Below, one piece after another: positions 3,259 through 19,485 of a stretch of 22,680 bases of DNA (the first letter of the stretch is position 1; every line of letters begins with the position of its first letter). The DNA lies in IMG/VR virus record IMGVR_UViG_3300009071_002372, positions 1-22,680 of that record. One strand, given 5' to 3'. The stretch comes from a virus. The position numbers and the translations under genes are program-made. The notes under the pieces were generated by a model. The model saw only the letters and a program-made list of their open reading frames with translations. It searched no databases and was not told the DNA's origin.

Positions 3259-3701
3259 AACGTAAAATGAAATGGGATATAAGATATTTAAAATTAGCAG
3301 AAGAAGTATCTAAGTGGTCTAAGGACCCTTCTTCTCAAATTGGAGCAGTTGCAGTAGGATCCAAAGGTCAAGTTTTATCTCAAGGATATAATGGTTTTCC
3401 TCGAGGCATAGGAGATTCTTTATCAAGATATTCAATAAGAGAAACTAAATATAAGTACATAGTACATGCTGAACAAAACGTAATTTACAACGCAACTTAC
3501 AACGGAGTATCTTTATATGGAGCTACCTTATATGTTTATGGCTTGCCTGTTTGTAACCATTGTGCTCTTGGTGTTATTCAGGTAGGAATCACAAGAGTTG
3601 TTATGTCAAAACAAAAAATAAAAGAACAATGGATTGACTCGTGGAATATGACTAAACAATTATTTGATGAAGCGGGTGTGGAATATGAATTCATTCTCTG
3701 A
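3252..3701 (+). CDS. cd: Deoxycytidylate (dCMP) deaminase
   Basis: The 149-residue zinc enzyme converts dCMP to dUMP, supplying the precursor for dTMP. The zinc site is visible: HAEQN with His72 and the proton-shuttling Glu74, and VCNHC with Cys101 and Cys104. The N-terminal LAEEVSKWSKDPSSQIGAV and GYNGFPRG (45-52) segments are standard for ComEB/phage dCMP deaminases. The usual Pro before the first zinc Cys is shifted (PVC rather than PC). A start at the ATG at 3267 (Met6, MKWDIRYLKLAEE) would match the family N-terminus better than ATG 3252; neither has a strong Shine-Dalgarno site. In T4-like phages this enzyme balances dCMP between hydroxymethylation by gp42 and dTMP synthesis, here by ThyX. 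Confidence 0.92.
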   Translation: MVERKMKWDIRYLKLAEEVSKWSKDPSSQIGAVAVGSKGQVLSQGYNGFPRGIGDSLSRYSIRETKYKYIVHAEQNVIYNATYNGVSLYGATLYVYGLPVCNHCALGVIQVGITRVVMSKQKIKEQWIDSWNMTKQLFDEAGVEYEFIL

Positions 3702-14132: not shown

Positions 14133-14157
14133 ACAGTAAAAAAATAGTTTTTAGCCA

Positions 14158-14186
14158 TTTACATTCTTTAGGATATATGGTTAAAT
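14158..14186 (+). promoter_or_regulatory. Promoter of the tmRNA unit, family member 3
   Basis: TTTACA at 14158-14163, a 17-base spacer ending TATGG, and TTAAAT at 14181-14186. Transcription would start near 14192-14193, exactly where the acceptor half of the tmRNA begins to pair with the coding half. An AAAAAAATAGTTT tract upstream resembles the one before promoter 4735. Confidence 0.78.
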
Positions 14187-14191
14187 AGACT

Positions 14192-14456
14192 GGTAGATGT
14201 TAGAGGATAGACAGGACCGCGGGGCAGTACCGCGCAGCTCCACCATAAACATATGAGAGTAGATGCACCTACTTTCCTGTGCATAGGACAAGGGCCGAAA
14301 GCCACAAGTCGTATGTTTATGATGGGGCTGAACTAGGATCGACTGGTATTTGAGTCTACGAAACACAAATGCAAACGATAACTTTGCACCATCTGATTAC
14401 GCTCTAGCAGCATAACACAGGGGGAGGCCACTGCCTAGCAACAGAAGTGTGGCATA
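14192..14456 (+). ncRNA. ssrA: Circularly permuted transfer-messenger RNA (tmRNA)
   Basis: The gene has the permuted order: acceptor half first, then an intervening segment, then the coding half. The acceptor half ends CAGCTCC-ACCA (14235-14245) and has a 5-bp T stem (14218-14222 with 14230-14234) around a GGCAGTA loop, as in alphaproteobacterial two-piece tmRNAs. The coding half starts GGGGCTGAACTAGGATCGAC at 14324; GGGGCTG pairs over 7 bp with CAGCTCC, including the third-pair G-U that marks alanine acceptors. The intervening piece is closed by CATAAACATA (14244-14253) pairing with TATGTTTATG (14312-14321). GTAGAT (14193-14198) pairs with GTCTAC (14354-14359) as the joining helix. A tag reading frame lies at 14371-14415. 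After it AGG/CCT and CCAC/GTGG (14425-14452) can form a pseudoknot. The exact 3' end is uncertain. It would rescue stalled ribosomes and tag incomplete proteins. Confidence 0.94.
14371..14415 (+). other. tmRNA tag reading frame
   Basis: GCA to TAA encodes ANDNFAPSDYALAA. The ANDN start is typical of alphaproteobacterial tags, and the terminal ALAA matches the ClpX/ClpA recognition end. The resume codon is GCA, just after CACAAAT. The middle (PSDY) would be useful for telling this tag from the host's own. Confidence 0.93.
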
Positions 14457-14484: not shown

Positions 14485-14865
14485 ATGAAAATTGCAGTAT
14501 TAGCCGCAGTATCGGCAATCACGTTAGCTGCTTGCGCAGCAGAAGAAGTTCAAGCAGCAGACATTGGAGTCTTAGGGCAAACCTTGTCAATTGGAGCTAC
14601 GGTAGATACAAACTATGAAACCGGAGTTGAAGAATGGTCAATGGAATTTGAACCGCATGCTGGCTGGAAAGCATGGGGAACTGATTTCAAAGTATCTAGT
14701 ACTTTTGATATTTTAGAGCTGAATAGTGGCGATGATATTTTTGAAGGATTGGATTTTGAAGCAGGCTATCAGATTTTCGATGGTGTCCGCGCTTATGGCG
14801 AAGTTAGCACCGACGCTGATCTAGAGTTTGGTAACACTACTGTAGGTGTTGCATTCACATTCTAA
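14485..14865 (+). CDS. Small secreted or outer-membrane beta-strand protein
   Basis: The 126-residue protein has a signal peptide (basic start, hydrophobic 3-17) with a possible lipobox LAAC (14-17) or a VQA cleavage site near 24. The mature part alternates polar and hydrophobic residues in strand-like runs and ends VGVAFTF, with the terminal Phe typical of outer-membrane beta barrels. At about 100 mature residues it could form only a small barrel or be a fragment. It has GGAAG before ATG 14485 and follows the tmRNA without a terminator, so both probably share promoter 14158, and a strong terminator follows. A surface role, such as blocking further infection, is speculation. Confidence 0.75.
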   Translation: MKIAVLAAVSAITLAACAAEEVQAADIGVLGQTLSIGATVDTNYETGVEEWSMEFEPHAGWKAWGTDFKVSSTFDILELNSGDDIFEGLDFEAGYQIFDGVRAYGEVSTDADLEFGNTTVGVAFTF

Positions 14866-14904: not shown

Positions 14905-14937
14905 AGGGGGCCACGGTTAGCCCCCTATTTTTATTTT
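14905..14937 (+). terminator. Strong Rho-independent terminator
   Basis: AGGGGGC (14905-14911) pairs with GCCCCCT (14920-14926) around an 8-base loop, followed by ATTTTTATTTT. It closes the tmRNA/outer-membrane protein unit. A second hairpin CGTTC/GAACG lies just upstream (14886-14901). Confidence 0.92.
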
Positions 14938-19014: not shown

Positions 19015-19485
19015 ATGAAAACAAAACTCTGGAAAAAGGTAAAGAAAATGGATCTAGGAAATCCCGTCATCACCGCCCTTGTTGGACTGGTGATTTTTTA
19101 TATTGGTCTTAAGACATTCTCAGGTGGTATGAAATCAATGGGAAATATGGACCATCTACAATTCTTTTTAGGTAGTCCAATTTATATGTTTATTGGAGGA
19201 ATCGTTATGACTCTCCTTTGGCAATCATCATCACTATCAACTACAGCAATCATTGCTTTAGTTGCATCTGGAGCTTTACCTCTTCCTGCTGCAGTTGCTG
19301 CAGTGCTTGGAGCTAACATTGGTACTACTGGTACAATATGGTTAGCTGGATTTTTTGTATCCGATGGCATGCCTAAAGGTGATACACTACGAATAGCTAT
19401 AGCACATACAGGAATGAATCTAATGATGGCATTAATGCTATTACCATTTGTAGGACACATAGCAAAATACCTTGGTAGATTTTGA
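19015..19485 (+). CDS. Half-size Na+/phosphate cotransporter (PF02690-like)
   Basis: The 156-residue membrane protein carries one copy of the Na/Pi cotransporter repeat: LLWQSSSLSTTAII with QSSS at 70-73, and VLGANIGTTGTIWLA with GANIGTT at 99-105, then RIAIAHTGMNLMMALMLLPF. Bacterial NptA-type proteins have two such repeats in about 300 or more residues. Here only one repeat is present, so it may pair as a dimer or act on the host transporter. Phosphate uptake is a known theme in marine phages, whose DNA synthesis needs phosphorus. RBS AGGAA precedes ATG 19015. It follows the terminator directly, so its own promoter is unclear. Confidence 0.88.
   Translation: MKTKLWKKVKKMDLGNPVITALVGLVIFYIGLKTFSGGMKSMGNMDHLQFFLGSPIYMFIGGIVMTLLWQSSSLSTTAIIALVASGALPLPAAVAAVLGANIGTTGTIWLAGFFVSDGMPKGDTLRIAIAHTGMNLMMALMLLPFVGHIAKYLGRF

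Follow-up and report, generated by a model that had tools for sequence, protein, structure and literature searches.

Anatomy of the Locus

The window considered here, the whole stretch of DNA that was analyzed, is a virus contig of 22,680 bases in which a circularly permuted (two-piece) tmRNA gene of the alphaproteobacterial type occupies positions 14193-14453 of the + strand, among genes for a UvsX recombinase, a gp41-type helicase, ThyX, and an endolysin. These neighbors mark the contig as that of a T4-like phage, as the first-pass annotation of the locus had it in calling the RNA phage-encoded. According to cmscan, two Rfam models match at full length, both on the + strand: RF04321 (tmRNA_permuted) with 80.8 bits at 14193-14415 (cut-off 47), and RF01849 (alpha_tmRNA), which that annotation had named as a check, with 69.7 bits at 14147-14456 (gathering cut-off 50). 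The acceptor half is encoded 5' of the coding half with an intervening segment between them, and this order, together with two scores above the gathering score, upholds the permuted tmRNA originally proposed. ARAGORN misses it. A second contig (L264), assembled independently, carries an identical tmRNA and nine identical neighboring proteins; therefore, the gene is not an assembly artifact.

The acceptor piece (14193-14245, 53 nt), defined by the Rfam match and by pairing in 64 compact sequences (see below), contains the 5' strands of helices P2a (14193-14198) and P2b (14212-14214), the T arm (14218-14234), and the 3' strand of the acceptor stem (14235-14241), followed by ACCA (14242-14245). 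The coding piece (14324-14453), likewise defined by the Rfam match, contains the acceptor 5' strand (14324-14330), the 3' strands of P2b (14343-14345) and P2a (14354-14359), an 11-nt linker (14360-14370), and the tag frame with its stop (14371-14415). The tRNA-like domain thus has the elements described in the first-pass annotation: a 7-bp acceptor stem (14235-14241 x 14324-14330) with a G-U third pair, a T arm, and CCA. Between the two pieces lies a segment of 78 nt (14246-14323) that would be excised, delimited by its fold and by 78/78 identity to the segment of another contig. The precursor-closing stem claimed for it agrees with folding, as the acceptor stem plus the closing helix of the segment gives a z of -4.5, with 0/200 shuffles equally stable.

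The tag frame opens with resume codon GCA (14371-14373), and the codons GCA AAC GAT AAC TTT GCA CCA TCT GAT TAC GCT CTA GCA GCA TAA encode ANDNFAPSDYALAA, a tag with an ALAA-like ending. Downstream of the tag, the sequence can form a pseudoknot (14422-14453) with stems S1 (GGG 14422-14424 x CCU 14434-14436) and S2 (GCCAC 14427-14431 x GUGGC 14449-14453), both of which covary in relatives, and its loop holds a conserved CAACAGAA; an AACAGAA motif is visible in the tails of relatives. Directly 3' of the tmRNA is a gene for a small, secreted-looking protein (14485-14865), which adjoins the tmRNA in several relatives too and has no family match; a terminator-like hairpin found by consensus scan (14905-14926, + strand) follows it.

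A Compact Class Without PK1

By the distance from the start of the coding piece to the resume codon, the tmRNAs divide into groups at 46-49, 55-65, and 78-94 nt, the counts of which are biased by a second scan aimed at short forms. At 47 nt, the window belongs to the compact class, of which about 65 distinct members were collected (67 distinct sequences were extracted, and helix pairing was scored in 64). The T stem is paired in 100% of positions across these 64 sequences, with 16 distinct stems (against 73% and at most 77% in shuffles), and the acceptor stem, P2a, and P2b are paired at 98.7, 99.5, and 99.5% (shuffle maxima 90, 92, and 81%, respectively). Since shuffling leaves the relatedness of the sequences in place, these figures are to be read as support rather than as probabilities. 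All four helices show two-sided changes that keep pairing across the 64 relatives; P2b, for instance, occurs as CAG/CUG, CUG/CAG, and AUG/CAU.

In the typical RF01849 architecture, P2 and the resume codon are separated by a pseudoknot, PK1, which the window lacks. In 61/64 compact sequences, the linker between P2a, whose helix covaries, and the resume codon is only 11-12 nt long, which leaves no room for PK1. Pseudoknot-like pairings within the 27-nt compact region were rejected, as they reuse nucleotides of P2. Among long-class relatives, a pseudoknot before the resume codon scores above shuffles in 91%. The post-tag pseudoknot is kept in compact relatives with covarying stems, and the position -4 from the resume codon is A in 65/65 compact sequences. 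It corresponds to A86 of E. coli tmRNA, which is required (PMC2481249). In E. coli, tagging persists when PK1 is exchanged for a hairpin or for single-stranded RNA (PMC3968760; PMC4236655), which makes a natural PK1-less tmRNA plausible. In its predicted structure, the compact form differs from cellular and Melnitz-type two-piece tmRNAs by having no PK1, whose place directly 5' of the resume codon is taken by the end of P2.

Several forms outside the window's own are of separate interest. The middle class (55-65 nt; viral contigs such as L021, L030, L035, and L042) seemingly lacks PK1 too. Unusually long tmRNA tags, e.g., ANDNVAQPKFMKKRNTFARKVGFTKGMALAA (31 aa) and ANDNVSNVFSFVDFGSLKNYVNEDYALAA (29 aa), occur in contigs L141, L210, and L227, and in L056. 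On the minus strand of L008, which carries a compact tmRNA, AGTACCGAGC is tandemly duplicated in the T arm that precedes the coding piece at 3385; its near relative L143 has a normal T arm.

The tag itself is under selection. Across 37 distinct 14-aa tags, the entropy by codon position is 3.3/3.5/12.0, and because the variation falls mostly at third positions, the tag frame appears to be selected at the protein level. This observation bears on a decoy or inhibitor role, in which the RNA would titrate SmpB or block host trans-translation, as proposed for the tmRNA of mycobacteriophage DS6A, which consists of the tRNA-like domain only. A phage tmRNA cut down to its tRNA-like domain does inhibit host tmRNA (PMC4131195; PMC11915505), and the window RNA is likewise reduced. 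However, selection has kept the reading frame of the tag with its stop codon, the context of the resume codon, and the pseudoknot past the tag, and a decoy would need none of them; this role is very unlikely. The best explanation is very probably that the locus is a real permuted ssrA of a T4-like marine phage, which would be processed to two pieces and tag stalled proteins with ANDNFAPSDYALAA, expression and function being what we infer from its features.

Distribution and Detection

A pattern scan of IMG/VR yielded at least 120 contigs with a permuted tmRNA of the alpha type. Nearly all compact contigs share the gene order of the window, UvsX-gp41-ThyX-endolysin-DUF3310-tmRNA and then DUF932, with the tmRNA locus at the same position in one T4-like clade; the nearest compact contig (L131) has 75-98% protein identity to the window. 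A Na/Pi-cotransporter domain gene (PF02690) at 19015-19485 of the window, probably an auxiliary metabolic gene, is 85-95% conserved in relatives. C48C1 is the closest complete phage, and a tmRNA gene was not found in it, so the gene is not essential across the wider phage group. None of the 13 phage records examined has an SmpB gene, and host SmpB would therefore serve. The alpha-type RNA was also considered as a sign of an alphaproteobacterial host, but it is no proof of one, as Melnitz, a phage of OM43, illustrates.

A search of 84,980 genomes of bacterial and archaeal species with one exact pattern, which would miss cellular tmRNAs that use other resume codons, found the compact form in one tmRNA only. 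It gave five matches, of which four were rejected as chance; the fifth lies on an 8.2-kb contig labeled Opitutia (L241) that looks viral, as it carries a phage DUF932 gene. By blastn, no compact member was found among the 50,697 phage records of INPHARED. The compact class thus appears restricted to viruses in the collections searched. ARAGORN detects 1/67 compact, 13/29 middle, and 45/68 long forms, which may be the reason that the class went unnoticed, and RF04321 detects 11/11 tested records of permuted phage tmRNAs.

Host ssrA fragments do get picked up by phages (PMC9004378), and the gene could accordingly be a recent acquisition from a host, or a passenger in decay, without function in the phage. 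This is extremely unlikely, given that the roughly 65 members, though divergent, retain an intact structure and occupy a conserved locus, that the compact form was not found in the cellular genomes searched, and that tag changes are biased to third positions.

A Plausible Promoter

The first-pass annotation had placed a promoter such that transcription would start at the first paired base, which is plausible: a -35 box TTTACA (14158-14163) and a -10 box TTAAAT (14181-14186), separated by 17 nt on the + strand, would give a start near 14193. Matches to the sigma-70-like consensus are no commoner in the window region than in shuffles. In 40/64 compact sequences, a match of at least 7/8 to TATAAATA begins precisely 13 nt 5' of the start of P2a (background rate 0.0016 per position), which we take to be the T4 late-promoter box at its usual distance. 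At this place the window has the octamer GTTAAATA (14180-14187, + strand), which matches TATAAATA at only 6/8. As both kinds of sequence are present, transcription could be of the host sigma-70 type or of the late type.

The Intervening Segment

Segments of at least 130 nt are present in 40/166 tmRNAs, and in 34 of these 40 a reading frame exceeds in length what shuffled sequences produce (p<=0.05). The frames, often with a ribosome-binding site, start about 7-48 nt past the CCA and stop just before or just within the coding piece. Such nested genes are found in L232, L222, L113, L176, L048, L216, L127, L208, L196, L134, L199, L050, L111, L087, L241, L083, and L227, as well as in Melnitz (L002, before 6010), whose annotated tmRNA has a 54-codon frame inside its segment. 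Differences by codon position in 17 homologous pairs of segment proteins are 170:101:328, which argues for purifying selection on these genes. The same segment protein families recur in tmRNAs of different classes (e.g., 59 vs. 84, 47 vs. 88), and ten segment proteins compared with PHROGs gave zero matches.

Selection on the segment genes, and the exchange of segments between tmRNA classes and phage lineages, would also fit a tmRNA that is a vehicle, its segment (small gene or RNA element) being the selected cargo and tmRNA activity secondary. However, many tmRNAs with very short segments (10-30 nt) are still intact, and the tmRNA body is selected independently, which makes this very unlikely.

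An RNA Element in the Segment

The segment of the window appears from its sequence to be a distinct, horizontally shared RNA element, with the core AGAGUAGAUGCACCURCUUUCCUGUGCAUAGGACAAG followed by a GNRA-type hairpin. All 78/78 nt are identical in L010, a contig whose only phage-gene similarity to the window is a weak match of 24%. The tmRNA of L010 is of the long class with a different tag, and aligns with that of the window at 44/52 positions in the acceptor and 111/150 in the coding piece and tail. About 64 real viral contigs have the element core, some of them within tmRNA segments, of compact-class as well as long-class genes, and others away from tmRNA. In the latter, the element lies directly 3' of manA RNA motifs (RF01745; E-values 4e-10 and 3e-10, neither reaching the gathering score), for instance in L022 (3702-3904), L248 (3587-3759), L246, L256, L287, and L300, and one set of copies adjoins tRNA-Pro. 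By blastn, it is absent from INPHARED and PLSDB. No Rfam match other than tmRNA was found in 14246-14323 at E<=5, including self-cleaving ribozymes.

Element positions 13-49 are invariant save for two sites, and the invariant ones include six that were left free in the second search pattern. Two of the predicted hairpins have loops, AUGCAC and GUGCAU, that complement each other perfectly and so point to a kissing loop; as both loops are invariant, covariation cannot test it. A third hairpin does covary (GGCC..GCC, GACC..GUC). A 27-codon frame in the segment (MRVDAPTFLCIGQGPKATSRMFMMGLN) was dismissed as a gene, since copies of the element next to manA motifs lack its ATG and the frame has no ribosome-binding site 5' of it. 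The element may help processing, be set free as a small RNA, or be a selfish cassette. In L246, the pair of manA and element seems to have a promoter and a terminator to itself, as an independent RNA gene would, an arrangement that fits poorly with a purely cis-regulatory manA.

Proposed Mode of Action

In the proposed mechanism, the transcript would begin near 14193 and fold so that the closing helix of the segment extends the acceptor stem. Cellular tRNA-processing enzymes would then remove the 78-nt segment, presumably by RNase P cleavage at 14324 and 3' processing past the CCA at 14245, and the acceptor and coding pieces would stay joined via the acceptor stem and P2. The product could be charged with alanine and, using the SmpB and EF-Tu of the host, gain access to stalled ribosomes, where it would append ANDNFAPSDYALAA, a putative degradation tag of the ClpXP type.

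Relation to Known tmRNAs

The first-pass annotation left novelty undecided. A two-piece, alpha-related tmRNA has been described in the T4-like marine myophage Melnitz of OM43 (Buchholz et al., 2022; PMC9004378), and therefore a permuted tmRNA in a phage is not new as such. In the same study, 53 of 133 unique phage tmRNA structures found with ARAGORN were two-piece forms, mostly marine (PMC9004378). The Melnitz ssrA (MZ577095) was recovered here with 113 and 107 bits. Like that of the window, it is phage-encoded in a T4-like genome, permuted, near thyX, and matched by RF01849 and RF04321, with a tag (ANDNYVPVDYALAA) and a promoter-like box just upstream. On the other hand, it has PK1 and 82 nt between the start of the coding piece and the resume codon (47 nt and no PK1 in the window), and it has a reading frame in its segment and a glutamine riboswitch downstream, which an Rfam search did not find downstream of the window tmRNA.

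With the alphaproteobacterial tmRNAs of RF01849, the window shares the permutation, the acceptor, the T arm, a GCN resume codon, an ALAA-type tag, and reduced pseudoknots past the tag. Alphaproteobacterial tmRNAs have pk1, and in Caulobacter the resume codon stands at nt 82 of chain A (PMC1168896), whereas the window RNA resumes at nt 48 and lacks pk1. As for the manA motif (RF01745), the element of the window lies 3' of it in other marine phage contigs and outside the RF01745 model, and the window itself has no such motif. The first-pass annotation was thus right in reading a complete, permuted, alpha-type, phage-encoded tmRNA, but it missed the precedent of Melnitz, the PK1-less form, and the distinct RNA element. 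The window RNA is a real phage tmRNA that probably works; its kind is known, whereas the compact variant is new.

Implications

The compact class provides a natural two-piece tmRNA without PK1, an element whose necessity has been debated on the basis of E. coli mutants. Marine viruses carry this form widely, and it was overlooked there since the usual finder misses it. The RNA element shared by tmRNA segments and manA neighborhoods is a concrete target for structure probing. On balance, we lean toward the view that the excised tmRNA segment of marine T4-like phages is a slot, whose conserved flanks let recombination swap small protein genes and the kissing-loop RNA element between classes and lineages, the window being the RNA-element version in a virus-restricted, PK1-less class. 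If so, this would be a gene-within-a-noncoding-gene arrangement, of which no description was found in the literature searched, and the tmRNA precursor would double as an mRNA or as the carrier of another RNA.
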